Source: Acidovorax sp. 106
GTDB lineage: Bacteria > Pseudomonadota > Gammaproteobacteria > Burkholderiales > Burkholderiaceae_C
Direction: 5' to 3'
Length of the DNA stretch: 64,000 bases
Assembly: GCF_003663825.1 (NCBI RefSeq)
Contig: NZ_RCCC01000001.1
Coordinates: forward strand, 3,356,501 to 3,420,500
Shown here one piece after another: positions 26,700 to 39,183 of the stretch. The notes beneath the pieces were generated by a model, which was given only the letters and a program-made list of their open reading frames with translations, ran no database searches and was not told the origin of the DNA. Both the position numbers and the translations under genes were made by a program. How positions within the stretch are numbered: position 1 is the first letter of the stretch; each line of letters opens with the position of its first letter.

Positions 26700-26952
26700 G
26701 GTGTACCGAGTGATTGAGTGGACGCTAGCCCATCATAGGCAGCAAGCCCCGTGCCCGCCATACGCCAGAGGGCGCAGGTGCGGCGAAGTTAGGGCGGAGT
26801 GATGGGGCTGGTCCGAACTGACTGGAGCCGCTTGTAGCCGTTTGGAGCCGTTCACTGAGCGCAGTCGAAGCGCCGCGCAAGGCTTCGACAGGCTCAGCCC
26901 GAACGGTGGTTTCCCGTTCCATGGTGCCGACGCCATCCAAGGAATCTGTGGC
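26700..26952. promoter_or_regulatory. Divergent intergenic region ureA / NCS1-kinase gene, containing a repeat family B hairpin
   Basis: The 253 bases separate the urease operon from the divergent sensor gene. Positions 26844-26906 contain two repeat family B elements in inverted orientation: a degenerate one (GAGCCGTTCACTGAGCGCAG then TCGAAGC) and a good one at 26882-26906, which could fold into a long hairpin. Before the sensor start is a ribosome site, CAAGGA at 26938-26943. No ureD coding sequence is present. Both transcripts must start here, but I see no confident -35/-10 pair. Confidence 0.6.
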
Positions 26953-29900
26953 ATGGAACCTGCACCCTGGCACCCCATGTCCATGCTTCCCGCAACCCCC
27001 GCCGACCCCAGCCAGCCCCCTCAGCAGGTCGTCAAGGTTCGCCGCGACTACAACAGCTGGGTAGCGACCGAGACCATGGAAGACTATGCGCTGCGCTACA
27101 CCCCGCAGCGCTTTCGCAAGTGGTCGGAGTGGCGGGTGGCCAACACGGCGTTTGGGGCAGCGTCGTTCCTGATCCTGGAAGCCGTGGGGGCCACGCTGCT
27201 GGTGCAATATGGCTTTATTAACGCCTTCTGGGCCATTGTGGCCACGGGGCTCATCATCTTTTTGGCGGGCTTGCCCATCAGCGTGTATGCGGCGCGTTAT
27301 GGCGTGGACATGGATTTGCTCACGCGCGGCGCGGGCTTTGGCTACATCGGCTCCACGCTCACTTCGTTGATCTACGCCAGCTTCACGTTCATCTTTTTCG
27401 CGCTCGAAGCCGCCGTGATGGCCTATGCGCTGGAGCTGGCGCTCGACATTCCGCCGCGCTGGGGCTACCTGATTTGCGCACTGGTGGTGATCCCGCTGGT
27501 CACGCACGGCGTGTCGGCCATCAGCCGCCTGCAGGTGTGGACGCAGCCGCTGTGGCTGGTGATGCTGGTGGTGCCGTTTGGGGTGGTGCTGATGCGCGAT
27601 CCTGGTGCGTTTTCCGGTATTTCGCACTATGGTGGTGAATCCGCGCTAGGAAATCGCTTTCAACTGCCCATGTTTGGTGCGGCGCTGACGGTGGGCATTG
27701 CCCTCATCACCCAGATGGGGGAGCAGGCCGACTATTTGCGCTTCATGCCTGCACCCACGCCGGGCAGGCGCGGGCGCTGGTGGCTGGGCGTGCTGGTGGG
27801 CGGGCCCGGCTGGGTGGTGCTGGGTGTGCTCAAGATGCTGGGCGGGGCGCTGCTGGCCTACCTGGCCTTGAGCCATATGGTGCCGGTGGACCGGGCGGTA
27901 GACCCCAACCAGATGTACCTGGCGGCGTATGAATACGTCTTCCCCAACTACAGCTGGGCGGTGGCGGCCACGGCGCTGTTCGTGGTGGTGTCGCAGCTCA
28001 AGATCAATGTGACCAACGCCTATGCGGGGTCGCTGGCGTGGTCCAACTTTTTCTCGCGCCTGACGCACAGCCACCCGGGGCGGGTGGTGTGGGTGGTGTT
28101 CAACACGCTGATTGCCTTCATGCTGATGGAGATGAACGTGTTCCGCGCCATGGGCGAGGTGCTGGGGTTGTACTCCAACATCGCCATCGCCTGGATCATG
28201 TCGGTGGTGGCCGACCTGGTCATCAACAAGCCGCTGGGCCTGTCGCCCAAGGGCATTGAATTCAAGCGCGCGCACCTGTATGACATCAACCCGGTGGGCG
28301 TGGGGGCCATGGCGCTGGCGTCCAGCGTGTCCATCAGCGCGCACTTGGGGTTGTTTGGCCCGCTGCCGCAGGCGTTCTCGGCGGTGATTGCGATGGCCGT
28401 GGCTTTTGTCACCGCGCCGCTCATTGCCTGGGCCACCCAGGGCAAGTACTACATTGCCCGCCGCAGCGAGCCGGTACCCGACCCGGTACCTGATCCGGTG
28501 GCGGTGCCCATGCACGGGCCGGTCAGCGGCCAGGTCGGCACCGGCACCGGCACCGGTGGCGACGGTGGCAGCTATGTGCGCTACACCGTGCAGCGCTGCG
28601 TGATCTGCGAGCGCGAATACGAAGCCCCCGACATGGCCCAGTGCCCCGCCTACCGGGGCGCCATCTGCTCGCTGTGCTGCACGCTGGATGCCCGCTGCGG
28701 CGACCTGTGCAAGCCGCACGCCAGCATGGCGGTGCAATGGTCTGCCGCGCTGCGCTGGGTGCTACCGCGCGCGGTGTGGCGCTATCTGGACACGGGCCTG
28801 GGGCACTTTTTGCTGCTGATGCTGGTGATTGCCCCGCTGCTGGCCGCCGTGATGGGCCTGCTGTACCACCAAGAGCTCAACACCATCGCCCAGGCCATGA
28901 CCGACACCGAAGTGCTGGCCGCCCCCGAGGTGGCGCTGCGCTCGGGCCTGCTCAAGGCGTATCTCGCGCTGCTGGTCATCTCGGGCATCGTGGCGTGGTG
29001 GCTGGTGCTGGCGCACAAAAGCCGCCAGGTGGCGCAAGAAGAATCCAACCGCCAGACCGGCCTGCTGGTGCGAGAAATTGACCTGCACCGCCAGACCGAC
29101 GAAGCCCTGCAGACCGCCCGCAGCGTGGCCGAGCAAGCCCGCCAGGTGGCTGAAGAAGCCAAGCGCGCCGCCGACCAGGCCAACCAGGCCAAGAGCCGCT
29201 ACATCAGCGCCATCAGCCACGAGATCCGCACGCCGCTGAACTCCATCCTGGGCTATGCGCAATTGATGGGCGAAGACCCTACGGTGCCTGCGCACCGCAA
29301 GCAGGCAGTGCATGTGATTCGCCGGGGGGGCGAGCATTTGCTTTCGCTCATCGAAGGCACGCTGGACATTGCCCGCATCGAATCAGGCAAGCTCACGCTC
29401 GATGTAGCGCCCATGCGCTTTGCCGATGGCCTGCACGAGATGGCCGGCCTGTTTGAATTGCAGGCCGCCGCCAAGGGCTTGGCCTTTGTGTTTGATGTGC
29501 AGGGCGTGATTCCCGAGGTGGTGCGCGCTGACGACAAGCGCCTGCGGCAAATCCTCATCAACTTGCTGGGCAACGCCATCAAGTTCACCGCGCAGGGCAC
29601 CGTCACGCTGCGCGTGCGCTATGCCCGCGAAATGGCGCGCATCGATGTGCAGGACACGGGCCCCGGCCTGTCGGTGGATGAGATTGAGCGCATCTTCGAG
29701 CCCTTCACGCGCGGCGGCTCGGGCGGCAGCAGCGCCACAGCGGGCGCCCCCGGTGCGGGCCTGGGGCTGACCATTGCCAAGATGCTCACCGCGCTGATGG
29801 GCGGCGAGCTGACGGTGACCAGCCAGCCCGGCGTGGGCTCGGTCTTTCACGTCAAACTCTTTTTGCCCGAGGTGCATGCCGACGCGCTGGGCAAGCAGGG

Positions 29901-30798
29901 CGGTTGGGCCGCGCCTGCACTGCGGGCCCTGCGCGCGCCCAGGCCCCGCACCGGCTACGCGGGCGAGCGCCGCCGCATTCTGGTGGTAGACAACGAAGAG
30001 CCCGACCGCGAGCTGCTGCGCCAGTTGCTGGAGCCTTTAGGCTTTGAGCTGCGCCAAGCCGCCAGCGGCCACGATGCGCTGGACCTGCTGGCCACGGGCT
30101 ACCGCCCCCACGCCATCTTCATGGACCTGGCCATGCCCGGGATTGACGGGTGGGAGACCATTCGGCGCATTCGCGCGCAGGGCTGGGCTGCGGCGACTGG
30201 TGGCGGTGCTGAAGACCCGCCCGACCATGGGCAGGAGGCAGGCGCCTGCATTGCCGTGGTCTCGGCCAACGCCTTTGACAAGACCCTGGAGAACGACGCG
30301 GGCATTCGCCCAGAGGACTTCATCGTCAAGCCTGTGCGCCACAGCGAATTGCTGGACTGGCTGGAGCGCCGGCTGGAGCTGGTGTGGCTGGATGACGCGC
30401 CTGCGGTGGCCCTTGTGCCCCAGCCGCCTGCCTTGCCAGCGTGGCAGCCCACAGCAGGCGGGCAGCGCCCCGGGCCGGTGCGCGACGTGCCGCAGGATGC
30501 GGGCGCTGCGGCATCTGCACCTCCTTCCCTATCTGCACCTTACTCAGCACCTTCATCGGCACCTTCATCTGCGGCGCCAGCCCCAGCCGGGCTGCGCACA
30601 GCACCGCCCGCAGCCGCGCTGGCCGATCTGGCGCAGTCCGTATCGCTGGGTTACTACCGGGGTATCCTCAACGCGCTGGCCGACATCGAGCGCCAGCACC
30701 CCGAGCATGCTGCCTTTGTGCTGCACATGCGGCAGTTGGCGCAGCAGTTCCAGTTCGACGCCATGGGCCAGATCCTGGAGCAAGAAGCCTCACCATGA
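26953..30798 (+). CDS. NCS1 family permease fused to a hybrid sensor histidine kinase
   Basis: This 1281-aa protein joins a transporter-like sensor to a kinase. Residues about 40-500 are an NCS1 (cytosine/purine/allantoin/hydantoin permease) domain with about 12 helices (DMDLLTRGAGFGYIGSTLTS near 120). A linker follows with a cysteine cluster (CVICEREYEAPDMAQCP, CSLCC, CGDLC), a possible metal knuckle, near 555-600, two more helices, a coiled coil, HisKA with SAISHEIRTPLNS (His near 756), HATPase (NLLGNAIKFT, DTGPGLS, GLGLTIAKML), and a receiver from about 1009 with Asp near 1056 (FMDLAMPG). I start at ATG 26953, after the CAAGGA site; the longer frame translates a repeat. It is analogous to CbrA, an SLC5 transporter fused to a kinase. 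Confidence 0.88.
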   Translation: MEPAPWHPMSMLPATPADPSQPPQQVVKVRRDYNSWVATETMEDYALRYTPQRFRKWSEWRVANTAFGAASFLILEAVGATLLVQYGFINAFWAIVATGLIIFLAGLPISVYAARYGVDMDLLTRGAGFGYIGSTLTSLIYASFTFIFFALEAAVMAYALELALDIPPRWGYLICALVVIPLVTHGVSAISRLQVWTQPLWLVMLVVPFGVVLMRDPGAFSGISHYGGESALGNRFQLPMFGAALTVGIALITQMGEQADYLRFMPAPTPGRRGRWWLGVLVGGPGWVVLGVLKMLGGALLAYLALSHMVPVDRAVDPNQMYLAAYEYVFPNYSWAVAATALFVVVSQLKINVTNAYAGSLAWSNFFSRLTHSHPGRVVWVVFNTLIAFMLMEMNVFRAMGEVLGLYSNIAIAWIMSVVADLVINKPLGLSPKGIEFKRAHLYDINPVGVGAMALASSVSISAHLGLFGPLPQAFSAVIAMAVAFVTAPLIAWATQGKYYIARRSEPVPDPVPDPVAVPMHGPVSGQVGTGTGTGGDGGSYVRYTVQRCVICEREYEAPDMAQCPAYRGAICSLCCTLDARCGDLCKPHASMAVQWSAALRWVLPRAVWRYLDTGLGHFLLLMLVIAPLLAAVMGLLYHQELNTIAQAMTDTEVLAAPEVALRSGLLKAYLALLVISGIVAWWLVLAHKSRQVAQEESNRQTGLLVREIDLHRQTDEALQTARSVAEQARQVAEEAKRAADQANQAKSRYISAISHEIRTPLNSILGYAQLMGEDPTVPAHRKQAVHVIRRGGEHLLSLIEGTLDIARIESGKLTLDVAPMRFADGLHEMAGLFELQAAAKGLAFVFDVQGVIPEVVRADDKRLRQILINLLGNAIKFTAQGTVTLRVRYAREMARIDVQDTGPGLSVDEIERIFEPFTRGGSGGSSATAGAPGAGLGLTIAKMLTALMGGELTVTSQPGVGSVFHVKLFLPEVHADALGKQGGWAAPALRALRAPRPRTGYAGERRRILVVDNEEPDRELLRQLLEPLGFELRQAASGHDALDLLATGYRPHAIFMDLAMPGIDGWETIRRIRAQGWAAATGGGAEDPPDHGQEAGACIAVVSANAFDKTLENDAGIRPEDFIVKPVRHSELLDWLERRLELVWLDDAPAVALVPQPPALPAWQPTAGGQRPGPVRDVPQDAGAAASAPPSLSAPYSAPSSAPSSAAPAPAGLRTAPPAAALADLAQSVSLGYYRGILNALADIERQHPEHAAFVLHMRQLAQQFQFDAMGQILEQEASP

Positions 30799-31862
30799 AC
30801 AGTCCCCCTCTGGCCCCCTCCATGCCGCCATCTCCCGCCCACATGCTCGACCGCGCCGACAGCGATGTGGTGCTGATCGTAGACGACGTGCCCGACAACC
30901 TGGCCGTGCTGCACGACGCACTCGACGAATCGGGCTACACCGTGCTGGTCGCCATGCATGGCGAGGCGGCCTTGCAGCGCGCTGCGCAGGCGTTGCCCGA
31001 CATCGTGCTGCTCGACGCCATGATGCCCGGCATGGACGGTTTTGAAGTCGCGCGGCGCCTGAAGGCCAGCCCCGCCACCGCGCACATCCCCATCATCTTC
31101 ATGACCGGCCTGACCGAGACCGAGCACCTGGTGGCCGCGTTAGAGGCCGGAGGCATCGACTACGTCACCAAGCCCATCAAACCGCGCGAGGTGATGGCCC
31201 GCATGCAGGTGCACCTGGGCGCCGCCCGCAAGGCCCGGCAAGACGCCGCCCAAGCCCGCGAGGCGCGCAACGCGCTCGACGCCTTTGGCTACGCCAGCAT
31301 CACCGTGCGCGCGTCAGACGGCCGCATCGTCTGGCAAACCCCGCTGGCGCGGGAGCTGCTGCAAAGTTACTTTGGTGAGGTGGGGCCCGATGGCACACCC
31401 ACTGCTTATGGCCAGTGGGCCCCCGAGCCCGTGCAGGCCTGGCTGCGCCGCCATGTGCTGGCCGACAACGCCGCCGAGCTGCTGGCCGCGTCGCTGGCCG
31501 AGCCACCGCGCCTGGCGGTAGAGCAGGGCGCGCGCCGCCTCACCTTTCGCCTGCACCAGCAGGCAGGCGACAGCGCGGGCGGCGGTGACTGGCTCATCGT
31601 GATGCGCGAGGTGTCTGACGCGAAGATCATCGAATCGATGAGCCTGTCCTTCAAGCTCACCGCCCGCGAGGCCGAGGTGCTGTACTGGGTGGTCAAGGGC
31701 AAGATCAACCGCGACATTGGTGACATCCTCGGTGCTAGCCCCGCCACCGTCAAAAAGCACCTGGAGCGCGTGTTTGCCAAGCTGGGGGTAGAGACGCGCA
31801 CGGCGGCGGCAGGTATGACTATGAACCGGATTCGGCAGTTGCACCCGCAGTTTGAAGGATGA
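30795..31862 (+). CDS. LuxR-type response regulator paired with the NCS1-kinase
   Basis: This 355-aa regulator has an N-terminal receiver (VVLIVDDVPDN near residue 25, phospho-acceptor Asp in IVLLDAMMPGMDGFEV near 75, MTGL and the YVTKPIKPREV lysine near 125), a middle region of about 150 residues with PAS-like features (AFGYASITVRASDGRIVWQTPLAREL), and a C-terminal LuxR HTH (LTAREAEVLYWVVKGKINRD...ASPATVKKHLERVFAKLGVETRT). The ATG overlaps the kinase stop (ATGA), so the two are coupled and are almost certainly a cognate pair. Targets are unknown; the neighbouring urease operon is an obvious candidate. Confidence 0.92.
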   Translation: MNSPPLAPSMPPSPAHMLDRADSDVVLIVDDVPDNLAVLHDALDESGYTVLVAMHGEAALQRAAQALPDIVLLDAMMPGMDGFEVARRLKASPATAHIPIIFMTGLTETEHLVAALEAGGIDYVTKPIKPREVMARMQVHLGAARKARQDAAQAREARNALDAFGYASITVRASDGRIVWQTPLARELLQSYFGEVGPDGTPTAYGQWAPEPVQAWLRRHVLADNAAELLAASLAEPPRLAVEQGARRLTFRLHQQAGDSAGGGDWLIVMREVSDAKIIESMSLSFKLTAREAEVLYWVVKGKINRDIGDILGASPATVKKHLERVFAKLGVETRTAAAGMTMNRIRQLHPQFEG

Positions 31863-34663: not shown

Positions 34664-34912
34664 TTAGGACGTCGCCGCTTCGAGATGTCGCCAGTACTGA
34701 TTGGCGGCGGCCACGGTCTGGAAGTTGATGGCGATGACCTGGGAGGCTGCGGTCAGGCCATTGGCATCGTTGGCATATTCCGGGCGCAATTTCTTGAGCA
34801 CATCGGTGTCCGGTTGGGTGGTTTTGACACCGCGTCGGCTCAGGGTGACGGCCAGCGCAAACCCCTCTTGGGGATTGGCGGTGATCAGGGTGGGAAGCCA
34901 GAGGTCGCTCAT
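34664..34912 (-). CDS. Hexameric tyrosine-coordinated haem protein (HTHP)
   Basis: This 82-aa protein matches what I know of HTHP, a small hexameric haem protein in which a tyrosine ligates the iron and which has peroxidase and catalase-like activity. Key segments are LWLPTLITANPQEGFALAV at the N-terminus, RGVKTTQPDTDVLKKLRPEY in the middle with the tyrosine, and SQVIAINFQTVAAANQYW at the end. A GGAG ribosome site lies 6 bases before ATG 34912. It starts 33 bases after the flavohaemoglobin stop and is the last gene of the NO operon, which suggests a role in clearing peroxide or peroxynitrite-type products. Confidence 0.8.
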   Translation of the reverse strand: MSDLWLPTLITANPQEGFALAVTLSRRGVKTTQPDTDVLKKLRPEYANDANGLTAASQVIAINFQTVAAANQYWRHLEAATS

Positions 34913-34945: not shown

Positions 34946-36115
34946 TCAGTTCAGTGCTTCGGTGGGGCCGAAGAACTCAAAGTGGCGCCGCTCGGTGGGG
35001 AGTCCGTGGTCAGCCAGCGCCCGGTTGATGCACTGCATGAAGGGCTTGGGGCCGAGGAAGTAGGCATCGGCGTCTGCCGGCACCCATTGCTGGATGTGCG
35101 CCAGGCTGGGGCGGCCGCAGGCAACGCCTTCGGTGGCGCCTTCCTCATAGGCCAGGTGCAGCTTGAGGCGCGGGTACTTGCGCGCCCAGGCAGCGAGTGT
35201 TTCCTTGAACGCATGCACCTCGGGGTTGCGTGCGTAGTGAATAAACACAACATCCCGCTCACCTTGCTCCAACGCTGTTTCTGCCATGGCCAAGGTGGGG
35301 GTAATGCCCACGCCGCCGCTGATCAGGGCCAGAGGTGCGGTGCCCGCCCCCAGCACAAACTCGCCGGCGGGTGGAAACACATCGAGCACCACGCCTACCT
35401 CGACTTGCTTGTGCAGGTAATTGGATACCACGCCATCGGGCTCGCGCTTGACGCTGATGCGCAGGGTGCGGCCATCTGCCTTTTGGGAGAGTGAGTAGTT
35501 GCGACGCACTTCCTGGCCGTTGATGAGCAACTTGAGGCCCAGGTACTGGCCGGGCTGGTAGTTCAGCACCGCGCCACCATCGACCGGGGCGAGCACGAAG
35601 GAGGTGATCTCAGTGCTTTCCACCTTCTTCTCCATCACCGCAAACTGGCGCGCACCGCGCCATCCGCCGGGCGCAGCGGCGTTTTGGGCGTATTGCGCAC
35701 TCTCTGCGCCGATCAAGATGTTGGCGAGTTGCCAGTAGGCGGCGCCCCAGGCCTCGATCACCGCGTCGGTGGCAATGGCGTCGCCCAGGACCTCGCGGAT
35801 GGCGCGCAGCAAGCAAGTGCCCACCATGGGGTAGTGCTCCGGCAGTATTTGCAGCGACACGTGCTTCTGGATGATTTGCGCGGGCAGTTGGCCCAAAGCG
35901 CCCAAGTTGTCGATATGGCGTGCGTACTTCAGCACCGCATTGGCCAAGGCGCGGGCTTGGGTGCCTTGTTGCTGGTGCGTCTGATTGAACAGGGGGCGAA
36001 CTTCCGGGTACTCGCTCATCAAGACTTGGTAAAAGTGGGTGGTAAGCGCCTCGCCGCCCGTCTCCAGCAGCGGGACGGTGGCTTTGATGATGGCGGTATG
36101 TTCAGTGCTCAGCAT
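34946..36115 (-). CDS. hmp: Flavohaemoglobin, nitric oxide dioxygenase Hmp
   Basis: Hmp converts NO and O2 to nitrate using NAD(P)H. The 389-aa protein has a globin domain (residues 1-140) with the conserved start MLSTEHTAIIKATVPLLETGG, the proximal-His region HVSLQILPEHYPMVG, an FAD domain with GQYLGLKLLINGQEVRRNYSLS (the RNYSLS FAD motif), and an NAD domain with LISGGVGITPTLAM and the C-terminal RRHFEFFGP. The length matches E. coli Hmp (396 aa). It lies 42 bases after the alternative oxidase gene in a run likely controlled by NsrR. Confidence 0.97.
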   Translation of the reverse strand: MLSTEHTAIIKATVPLLETGGEALTTHFYQVLMSEYPEVRPLFNQTHQQQGTQARALANAVLKYARHIDNLGALGQLPAQIIQKHVSLQILPEHYPMVGTCLLRAIREVLGDAIATDAVIEAWGAAYWQLANILIGAESAQYAQNAAAPGGWRGARQFAVMEKKVESTEITSFVLAPVDGGAVLNYQPGQYLGLKLLINGQEVRRNYSLSQKADGRTLRISVKREPDGVVSNYLHKQVEVGVVLDVFPPAGEFVLGAGTAPLALISGGVGITPTLAMAETALEQGERDVVFIHYARNPEVHAFKETLAAWARKYPRLKLHLAYEEGATEGVACGRPSLAHIQQWVPADADAYFLGPKPFMQCINRALADHGLPTERRHFEFFGPTEALN

Positions 36116-36157: not shown

Positions 36158-37120
36158 TCAATGGCGGCGCGGGTTGTGGTCATAGAACTCGATACAGACC
36201 TTGACGGCTCCCACCGGCTCCACAAAATGCGGGCTCAGCGGCGTCACATAGCCCGGCGTCTGCGCATCGAGAAGCTCGACGTTTCCGGTGTCCAGGTGGG
36301 TCAGCCGGAGGCTGCCTTCTTTCACGCGGATCACGCCCCACACGTCTTTGGCCGTGTTGTGTTCTTTCTGGAGAGCGGCCGGCAAGTTGTCCTGGGTGAA
36401 ATCCGCCGTCACGCGGTAAGGGCCGGCTTCTTGGGGAGTCAGCTCTGTCGTGCTGGCATGCCATGGGTAGGGCGAAGGGTTGCCTGCAGGGCTTGCCCCG
36501 CCGAGCTCTGCGGCCAGGCTGTGGTTCACGTCGCGGTGGTGGGCTTCATCGGCGCGCACCGCCAGCACGACATCGCGCAAGGTGGCCGACGGGGGCAAGC
36601 CCCAGTACTGGCGGGCAATCGCCGGTGCCGGGATATTGGCAACCCGGCCCGCATCGATCTCCTCAAGGTAGAGCGTGTAGCTGACCACCGCCTCCTCCTC
36701 AAAGTAGCCCACCAAGCGGTGCGCTGTGCGGGGGCTGATGAGGTACAGCAGCGAAAAGCCGAGGTAGAAAACCCACTGCACGGTCAGGATCACCACGCGC
36801 TCGAACAAGGTAGGTTGCGCCACTTCGATGAAGGTCATCAAGTGCATGCGCTCGTTCTCGGCCTCTTCCATCAGGGTACGGATCCAACCTTTGTCGTTCT
36901 CCATCCGGCGCAGGCAACGCAGGTGGGTGAGCGTGGCGCCCACCATGCCGGGCACGGCGGCTACGGTCTCCAGAACGATGGCGCGGTGTCCATAGCGTTT
37001 GGCAAAAAAGGTATCGGCACACCAGCGCAGCAACTTGGTCACAGCCAGTGCAAAGCGGTCGGATGCAGCACCGGGCGCATGGTGAACAGACAGGTCAATG
37101 GGGGGCGTAGAAAAAGACAT
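36158..37120 (-). CDS. aox: Alternative oxidase fused to a C-terminal DUF1971 (YeaR/TehB-like) domain
   Basis: Residues 1-215 are an alternative oxidase, a di-iron quinol oxidase that reduces O2 without pumping protons and resists cyanide and NO. The iron ligands are all visible: E51 in [10 protein letters not shown]90 and H93 in ENERMHLM, the EEE near 142, and E192 and H195 in RADEAHHRD. One or two membrane-associated helices lie at 105-130. Residues about 228-320 ([20 protein letters not shown], then [14 protein letters not shown], then [20 protein letters not shown]) resemble DUF1971, the small cupin-like domain of E. coli YeaR, which is NsrR-controlled and nitrate-induced. The fusion is unusual and fits the NO setting. 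Confidence 0.88.
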
Positions 37121-37185: not shown

Positions 37186-37587
37186 CTAAGGCGCTGTGTT
37201 GGAATCAAACAATGCAAATTGCAAGCTGGTGGCGATCTGGCTGGCCTTGTGGACAAACAACCTGGCCTGCTCTGGCGAAAACAACTCATGGGTGGTCTGC
37301 GTCCACAGCTCCAGCCAGCGGGTAAACATGGCGGGGGTGAGCACATCCAGATGCTTGGCATGCATTTGCACCGGCTTGCCGTGGTAGCGGCCGGACGACA
37401 GCATCACAGAAGACCAAAAGGCGTTCATGTGGCCGAGGTGCTCTGCCCAGTGCCCTTCGGGTATTGCGCGGGCAAACACCGGGCCCAGCGACTCGTCTTC
37501 CCGAACGCGGGCATAAAAAGTAGCAATCAAGGTCGAAATGCCGGCCTCGTCCAGGGCTAGAGGCGGACATGTTTCAGCAATAAGCAT
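37186..37587 (-). CDS. Group III truncated haemoglobin (Cgb/TrHbP-like)
   Basis: This 133-aa protein matches group III truncated haemoglobins, such as Ctb of Campylobacter, which contribute to NO and oxygen handling. Segments seen are [40 protein letters not shown] (helix E and the region before the proximal His), [26 protein letters not shown] with the proximal histidine, and a C-terminal helix. I chose ATG 37587 because the open frame beyond it runs into the promoter region of the divergent regulator. It is the first gene of the minus-strand NO operon; alternative oxidase starts 65 bases later. Confidence 0.88.
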
Positions 37588-37601: not shown

Positions 37602-37666
37602 AATGATGTATCTTGGATGCCAGTTTATCGAGGAATCTATAAACATGCAAATGAAATACTTGTTTA
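37602..37666. promoter_or_regulatory. Candidate NsrR operators in the divergent NO promoter
   Basis: The 92-base gap between the haemoglobin gene and nsrR contains two partial matches to the NsrR palindrome (GATGYATTT-n-AAATRCATC). ACATGCAAATGAAATACTTGT at about 37643-37663 matches most positions of both halves, and TGATGTATCTTGGATGCC at about 37604-37621 has one strong half. They would let NsrR repress both directions until NO destroys its cluster. Matches were judged by eye. Confidence 0.5.
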
Positions 37667-37679
37667 ATTGGAGGCTACG

Positions 37680-38162
37680 GTGCGCCTGACCCAGTTTTCT
37701 GACTTCGCCGTTCGCGTCATGCTCTACCTGGCTGCCCACACGGAGCGGCTGTGTTCCGTGGGGGAGATCGCGGGTGCCTATGAAATCTCTGACAACCACT
37801 TGATGAAGGTTGTCAGCAAGCTCGCGGCCGAGGGCTATATCAAATCCGTCCGGGGCCGCAACGGTGGCATCCGGCTGGGCAGGCCCGCTACCGAGATCAA
37901 CATAGGCAAACTCATTCGCTACACCGAGGGGCACATAGACCTGGTGGGCTGTGCGCAATGCAAACTCAACGGGGTTTGCAACCTTCCGGGTCCGCTGGAC
38001 CTAGCGCTCGCCGCGTTCTTCGCCGTGCTGGAGCGCTACTCGTTGGCCGACGTTCTGGGCACACAAGATGGCATGCGCATGCTGCGGCAACTAGCGATCG
38101 TTTCTCGCTCGGACAACTCCACCACGGTGACTCCGATCAGGACGCGTTTGAAACCTGGATAA
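37680..38162 (+). CDS. nsrR: NO-sensing Rrf2 family repressor NsrR
   Basis: This 160-aa Rrf2 protein has an N-terminal winged helix (VRLTQFSDFAVRVMLYLAAH and ISDNHLMKVVSKLAAEGYIKSVRGRNGGIRLG) and three conserved cysteines C91, C94 and C100 in GCAQCKLNGVC, which would hold the Fe-S cluster that NO attacks. The DYALRxL-type start and VSDNHLMKV wording are like NsrR rather than IscR, which has a different cysteine spacing. Start: the GTG at 37680 has a GGAG site 6-7 bases upstream. It diverges from a haemoglobin-AOX-Hmp-HTHP operon, strongly supporting NO as the signal. Confidence 0.93.
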   Translation: MRLTQFSDFAVRVMLYLAAHTERLCSVGEIAGAYEISDNHLMKVVSKLAAEGYIKSVRGRNGGIRLGRPATEINIGKLIRYTEGHIDLVGCAQCKLNGVCNLPGPLDLALAAFFAVLERYSLADVLGTQDGMRMLRQLAIVSRSDNSTTVTPIRTRLKPG

Positions 38163-38291: not shown

Positions 38292-39183
38292 TTGATCCGG
38301 CCTCCAGTCATTTGGATTTTTGAAGCCTGTCATCATCAGTTCAGTGATGAACGCAAGCGACCTGAGAAGTATGTCCAAAGCGGCTCGCCACCAGCGTTGG
38401 GTGCTGGTCATCCGATTGCGCAAGGCGGGCCAAACGCTTGATGAGATTGCGCAACAGAGGGGGAGGACGGATGTGTTCAGCATTTGCAAGCGCTATGAGC
38501 AGCACGGAGCGAAAGCGCTGCCCGATACGCTGGGCGGAAGCGGATTGGGCGGCAAGCGGCCGCCCAGCGCCCAGCAAAAAGTACAGGTTCAGAAGCTGAT
38601 CACGGAGAAGTCAGCGGATCAACCCAAGATGCCTTGCGCGTTGTGGGCACGCTGTGCCGTGGCGCAGTTGATCGAGCAGCGCTTTGGCTTCAAGAGGCAA
38701 GTACGCACCATGGGAAGTATCTAGCCCGCTGGGGCTTCACACCGCAAAAGCGCATGAAGAAGGCTTGCGGGCAATCGCCTGCAGCGGTCAAGAAATGGCA
38801 CGAAGAGGACTACCCCGTCATTGCGGCAGCGGCCAAGGCTGAGGGAACCGAGATTCAATGGGGGGCCGAAAGCGGCCTGCGCAGTGACGATGTGCGCGGT
38901 CACGGCTTCGCCCCCACGGGCCAGATGGCTGAGCATGCGGATGCGATTCAGGTGTTCTATCTGCCAAGCTACAGCGCAGAGCTGGGCCCCGATGAAATGG
39001 CCAATGCTGACATTCAGCAGGCGGTCACGAAACTGGCGCCAGCCCGCGCGAAGCTGCAGTGGGTCAAAGCCACTTTCCGTGATCTACGCAGTGAGCAACG
39101 TCAGTTCGAGAGGATTCGAAAATACTCCCAGCATGATCCGGTTCGCTATGCCGCTTGATTCAACTTCACTGATGCCGGATCAA
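38292..39183 (+). mobile_element. Degenerate IS630-family insertion sequence
   Basis: The remnant is bounded by short terminal inverted repeats, TTGATCCGGC at 38292-38301 and its inverse at 39174-39183, with partial similarity extending inward. The left end abuts TA, the target used by IS630 elements, but the right flank does not, so the duplication is not intact. At 892 bases it is shorter than typical IS630 elements (about 1.1-1.2 kb), because the transposase has lost its catalytic middle. It lies just downstream of nsrR. Confidence 0.75.
38320..39158 (+). pseudogene. Broken IS630-type transposase gene
   Basis: The N-terminal HTH part reads in one frame from 38320 (SKAARHQRWVLVIRLRKAGQTLDEIAQQ, then KRPPSAQQKVQVQKLI) and the continuation in another frame from about 38690 (KYLARWGFTPQKRMKKACGQSPAAVKKWHEEDYPVIAA). 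After GLRSDDVRGHGFAPTGQ the sequence jumps to MAEHADAIQVFYLPSYSAELGPDEMANADIQQAV, so roughly 70-80 residues with the first catalytic acidic residues and their surroundings are missing. A frameshift plus this deletion makes it non-functional. Confidence 0.85.

Follow-up and report, generated by a model that had tools for sequence, protein, structure and literature searches.

Encoded in the 64,000-nucleotide stretch of DNA analysed here (the window) is an alternative oxidase (AOX) joined to a DUF1971 domain, a rare combination of known parts that is real and selectively maintained. The wider find, beyond the fusion itself, is the cassette to which these genes belong, nsrR/trHb3–aox–DUF1971–hmp (the slash marking divergent transcription). 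We lean towards reading the window's genes as a form of this NsrR-type NO-defence cassette, in which DUF1971 would be an accessory of NO detoxification lying outside the electron path. The features discussed below are collected in Table 1.

Table 1 Features of the cassette and its surroundings, in window coordinates
Feature	Position	Strand	Basis and remarks
HTHP, hexameric tyrosine-coordinated haem protein	34664..34912	−	PF11534 E 4.2e-36
hmp, flavohaemoglobin	34946..36115	−	NCBIfam 530.5 bits, cut-off 432
AOX–DUF1971 fusion protein, 320 aa	36158..37120	−	single open frame; Pfam AOX and DUF1971; model
DUF1971 cupin domain, residues 238–306	36203..36409	−	H254 and H298 conserved
AOX domain, residues 12–203	36512..37087	−	ligands E51, E90, H93, E141, E192, H195
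Group III truncated haemoglobin (trHb3)	37186..37587	−	PDB 2ig3 E 5e-17; first gene of the presumed operon
NsrR-type operator, putative	37642..37664		17 of 20 fixed positions; in the nsrR–globin gap
NsrR-like Rrf2 regulator, divergent	37680..38162	+	PF02082 E 4.7e-31, 108.1 bits
Broken transposase, two overlapping frames	38320..39158	+	HTH_33 27.5 bits; DDE_3 25.4 bits, below cut-off
1318-aa frame: HisKA, HATPase_c and receiver domains	26842..31862	+	Pfam

The fusion protein and its distribution

The frame matches the AOX profile over the whole domain (PF01786, E 7.2e-85, 284.5 bits, profile positions 12–215 of 216), and its tail matches DUF1971 (PF09313, E 1.3e-15, 57.6 bits against a cut-off of 23.1). 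The original prediction, made from the letters alone, that an oxidase with all six iron ligands is fused to about 90 DUF1971-like residues thus stands: the four glutamates and two histidines of the diiron site are all found, together with an active-site tyrosine, Y148, the ligands being assigned by reference residue numbers. The AOX part is expected to be an NO-resistant respiratory oxidase, a function predicted from its family. As in the DUF1971/YeaR/TehB N-terminal domain family, the tail has a cupin fold with its two conserved histidines; the TehB methyltransferase domain (PF03848) has no Pfam match in the fusion protein, and the NCBIfam TehB model reaches 24.2 bits against a cut-off of 303.

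Among the best 120 listed of 8000 database relatives scored, the two Pfam domains occur together in at least eight metagenome or database proteins (P0002–P0008 and P0010), and the remaining 112 are listed with AOX alone, so that AOX proteins as a rule do not have this tail. A survey of genome loci adds five others: with P0001 as query, 5 of the 80 loci retrieved are fused, from one Comamonadaceae metagenome-assembled genome (MAG), one Oxalobacteraceae MAG and three Undibacterium species. The DUF1971 part of the fusion, used as query, recovers only four proteins, every one an AOX fusion. Because independent genomes and database proteins carry the same fusion, an assembly or frameshift artefact is ruled out.

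Within the window's family, AOX was found in 10 of 299 evenly sampled genomes, with DUF1971 near it, in the stretch examined around each AOX, only in the window's genome; the three other genomes of the window's genus in this sample lack AOX. Across the window's class, AOX is present in 9 of 274 genomes, the window's own included. The 43 Undibacterium genomes comprise three with the fusion, one with AOX and no DUF1971 in the examined stretch, and one further genome in which a weak DUF1971-like piece adjoins a globin.

Fused proteins of the window's lineage and of Undibacterium share 72–74% identity. For the DUF1971 part, dN/dS comes to 0.16 (window/L002, a pair resting on few changes), 0.10 (window/L003) and 0.09 (L004/L006), and for the AOX part to 0.02, 0.05 and 0.08 in the same pairs, so both domains are under purifying selection. 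This means that both domains are needed; a need for the join itself does not follow. Residues A257 and C309 were considered as specific to the fusion, being shared by the six locus-derived fusions. By eye, P0010 has K and Q at these positions, and the two residues therefore mark the betaproteobacterial (beta) clade, not the fusion.

The cassette, its control and its origin

The setting in an NO regulon claimed at the outset was borne out, with an nsrR-like gene, hmp and a globin adjoining and an NsrR-type site upstream. The globin is assigned to group III by its match to 2ig3, the best other globin reaching only E 0.042; against Pfam Bac_globin it scores 15.6 bits, under the cut-off of 21. The small haem protein HTHP, here found in the company of NO genes, is encoded last in the window's operon, and the fused locus L003 likewise has it after hmp. 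Just past nsrR is the transposase remnant, which we take to be of IS630 type, forming a mobile edge beside the cassette. The 1318-aa frame elsewhere in the window, overlapped by a receiver–LuxR regulator frame, has an N-terminal part that is transporter-like by eye and finds no Pfam match at E 0.01; it is possibly a transporter–sensor kinase.

The regulator frame opens at 37668, with the GTG at 37680 the likelier start on inspection. Its cluster cysteines (CAQCKLNGVC) follow the spacing C-x2-C-x5-C, which 46 of the 52 Rrf2 frames found in the loci share. Against the NCBIfam NsrR model it scores 112.2 bits, under the cut-off of 182, which counts against the cassette explanation and is why we call it NsrR-like. 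Published work gives gATGyAT-N5-ATrCATc as the NsrR consensus (PMC1274295). Operators were sought with an extended 23-base pattern of 20 fixed positions, whose outer bases follow the 11-1-11 motif of E. coli. The putative operator is the only site scoring 16 or more across the 64 kb, and no site of 17 or more positions occurs in 20 shuffled windows. Upstream of homologous cassettes, taken both with and without nsrR, an NsrR-type site is present at p ≤ 0.01 (against 300 shuffles) in 44 of 48 regions. In Undibacterium (L004–L006), a strong NsrR-type palindrome (17–18 of 20) lies 5′ of the globin despite the lack of nsrR in the retrieved flanks; the regulator gene may have another genomic location.

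The retrieved loci were scanned with hidden Markov models derived from the genes of the window itself. The window's order is nsrR/globin–aox+DUF1971–hmp–HTHP; the fused locus L002 has this order minus HTHP, and in L003 the globin is placed after hmp and HTHP, with no nsrR within the flank. At 17 other loci, all alphaproteobacterial by their titles (some of them MAGs), the order is nsrR/globin–aox–DUF1971–hmp and the oxidase and DUF1971 are encoded by two genes; a further 17 share this unfused arrangement but show no hmp within the retrieved flank. DUF1971 is in the flank of 49 of the 80 best-matching loci (5 fused, 44 separate and downstream of aox), a sample skewed toward DUF1971 since the query contained it, and the globin is also present at 44 of these 49.

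At 15 of the 16 unfused junctions examined, the DUF1971 ATG lies 2–3 bases beyond the point where the aox stop ends, leaving stop and start 1–2 bases apart, and the inter-domain spacer is similar in the two arrangements (72–96 bases fused versus mostly 68–95 unfused). The fused linkers retain the AOX C-terminal motif PYPxHA, followed directly by the DUF1971 start PYRxT, so the fusion is a plain read-through. The sequences show that it derives from the conserved cassette by loss of the aox stop, with the AOX C terminus and the whole of DUF1971 kept.

By AOX phylogeny, the fusions from betas are nested in a mostly alphaproteobacterial group (SH-aLRT 98), a placement that suggests transfer into the betas. 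Base composition gives no clear sign of transfer (G+C of 61.2% in the cassette, 64.3% in the window and 62.2% in the left flank), and nsrR is missing from about 6 kb (three species) or about 16 kb (two species) on each side of the cassettes in Undibacterium; both observations stand against a simple story, and the second also counts against the cassette explanation. In the DUF1971 tree, which has few alignment columns, the ten beta fusions cluster together (SH-aLRT 96), P0010 standing apart; the AOX tree places 11 fusions together with weak support (71), again with P0010 apart. Forcing all 12 fusions together in the AOX tree is not rejected (p-AU 0.62) and gives a higher likelihood. P0010 thus has the look of another fusion event, independent of the first and formed alike, although a single origin is not rejected by the AOX data.

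Partners and role of DUF1971

A sample of 149 Sphingomonadaceae genomes around the centre genome G316, not picked by fusion, contains AOX in 31 genomes (32 loci) and DUF1971 in 48 (56 loci), with both in 17 genomes versus about 10 expected if independent. DUF1971 is within about 5 kb of 14 of the 32 AOX loci, every one with the globin too, and directly follows aox at 5 of the 32, centre genome included. Within 1.5 kb of the 30 DUF1971 loci examined (of 56, mostly the best-scoring) are the globin in 27, nsrR in 16, hmp in 15 and AOX in 10, and four of the 30 are globin–DUF1971 fusions. The commonest partner of DUF1971 is thus the truncated haemoglobin, not AOX, and 31 of the 48 DUF1971-bearing genomes have no AOX.

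Class-wide in Alphaproteobacteria, 30 of 289 genomes have AOX, 18 have DUF1971 and 2 have both, a co-occurrence not above chance that weighs against the cassette explanation. One of the two is the centre genome; in the other, G857, AOX and DUF1971 are 1.3 kb apart with nsrR and globin between. The globin is within 1.5 kb of 9 of 20 class-wide DUF1971 loci; the 11 with no globin at that distance also speak against the cassette explanation, and three of them, on inspection, have unrelated neighbours. AOX without DUF1971 nearby is the usual case (28 of 30 loci class-wide and 18 of 32 in Sphingomonadaceae). In the window's order, DUF1971 occurs in 29 of 399 genomes; at 28 loci, 12 proteins are of TehB length (285–294 aa, one Pfam-confirmed) and one, L143, is a globin–DUF1971 fusion. 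In the distant gammaproteobacterial loci L331, L336 (genome G1235) and L335, AOX, an nsrR-like gene, and globin or DUF1971 are linked with aox first. In G1235, AOX is followed by the nsrR-like gene on two contigs, then by DUF1971 on one and by globin on the other.

Eight globin–DUF1971 fusions were found among the retrieved loci. With the DUF1971 part of one as query, 35 proteins were listed, 31 of them of 205–285 aa; six of the 35 are JGI-named 'truncated hemoglobin YjbI/tellurite resistance-related', and a Pfam globin domain is found on only one. Like the window's protein, the group III truncated haemoglobin fusions have DUF1971 joined C-terminally to a cassette neighbour; unlike it, their partner is the globin, and in the samples seen they are commoner than the AOX fusion. 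At L122, DUF1971 is fused to the TehB methyltransferase.

Since DUF1971 is also fused to globin and to TehB, an electron-transfer role specific to the oxidase is unlikely, and the reading we favour is that the domain assists NO detoxification in general and takes no part in AOX electron transfer. Going by the gene families, NO would disable the Fe–S cluster of the regulator and release the operon; Hmp and probably the globin would oxidize NO to nitrate; and AOX would sustain ubiquinol oxidation while haem oxidases are blocked by NO. DUF1971 would be a small soluble cupin handling some ligand or by-product that haemoglobin, AOX and TehB share in NO detoxification, its H254 and H298 perhaps binding a metal, and the fusion would fix its dosage and tether it to the membrane-bound oxidase. 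The two histidines are nearly invariant (125 and 123 of 128 domains) and fit the first and last histidines of the two cupin motifs, with the second histidine replaced by threonine and the glutamate by tryptophan; a metal is plausible from this pattern.

Published work bears on this proposal from both sides. YeaR and TehB are members of the NO/nitrate response, and in E. coli CFT073 yeaR is up 160-fold under nitrate treatment; a novel NO-scavenging activity survives deletion of yeaR–yoaG or tehAB (PMC5320621), which is against an essential role for DUF1971. The aox of Sphingopyxis granuli is NO-induced (PMC6472365), which favours the cassette explanation; in the one strain seen (L072) no DUF1971 adjoins it, a point against the cassette explanation. 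In S. granuli TFA, NO induces an operon named 'Cupin-norB-nnrS2'; that its cupin is a DUF1971 gene is not supported: none of the seven frames around DUF1971 in strain NBRC 100800 has norB or nnrS domains.

An aid to electron transfer at the oxidase, as originally proposed, or an assembly domain delivering iron to the diiron site, would fit the linkage and fusion of DUF1971 to AOX and a possible metal site. We consider this very improbable: DUF1971 is a separate gene at 44 of the 80 best-matching loci, most AOX loci have none nearby, and it stands more often beside the globin and frequently in genomes without AOX. AOX, moreover, takes electrons directly from quinol. In the sensing form of the original idea, DUF1971 might instead respond allosterically to nitrite, nitrate or NO and so switch or protect the oxidase, or the haemoglobin in other fusions. 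Its cupin fold with the near-invariant histidines, its repeated association with haem and diiron proteins that handle NO, and the yeaR response of E. coli can be cited for this. Such a sensor seems unlikely, given that the domain is also joined to a methyltransferase, occurs without any such partner, and is not near most AOX.

The fusion could also be a neutral read-through of adjacent genes, bringing no gain over separate proteins. The near-abutting junctions, the matching spacers and the resemblance of P0010 to a second fusion formed alike are in its favour; retention of the fused form as far as Undibacterium, with both parts under purifying selection, leaves it doubtful. Quite unlikely, finally, is that DUF1971 is an iron cupin enzyme whose substrate is an N-oxide such as NO, nitrite or some nitrosated product; it would then be a hitherto overlooked final member of a trHb3/AOX/Hmp module for NO defence, and the fusion a membrane-tethered bifunctional enzyme that both respires and processes N-oxides.

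Among the closest known systems, the AOX of Vibrio fischeri is, as stated at the outset, an NsrR-controlled, NO-induced bacterial AOX, and the available sections of review PMC5156696 report no DUF1971 part for it. YeaR (3bb6) and the TehB-annotated chain 3dl3 are single domains, unlike the window's oxidase-joined DUF1971, and in H. influenzae TehB (3m70) a DUF1971-type domain is joined to a methyltransferase, not to an oxidase. SznF (8e8w) is also among the closest systems. In the openly licensed literature no paper was found with both 'alternative oxidase' and 'DUF1971', and its titles and abstract starts yielded no description of the nsrR/trHb3–aox–DUF1971–hmp cassette.

The cassette and the fusions name partners for DUF1971 (truncated haemoglobin, AOX and Hmp) and so give a lead on its function, for which the tethered proteins and compact operons are direct test beds. 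They also suggest that bacterial AOX of the window's clade is often within an NO-defence unit.
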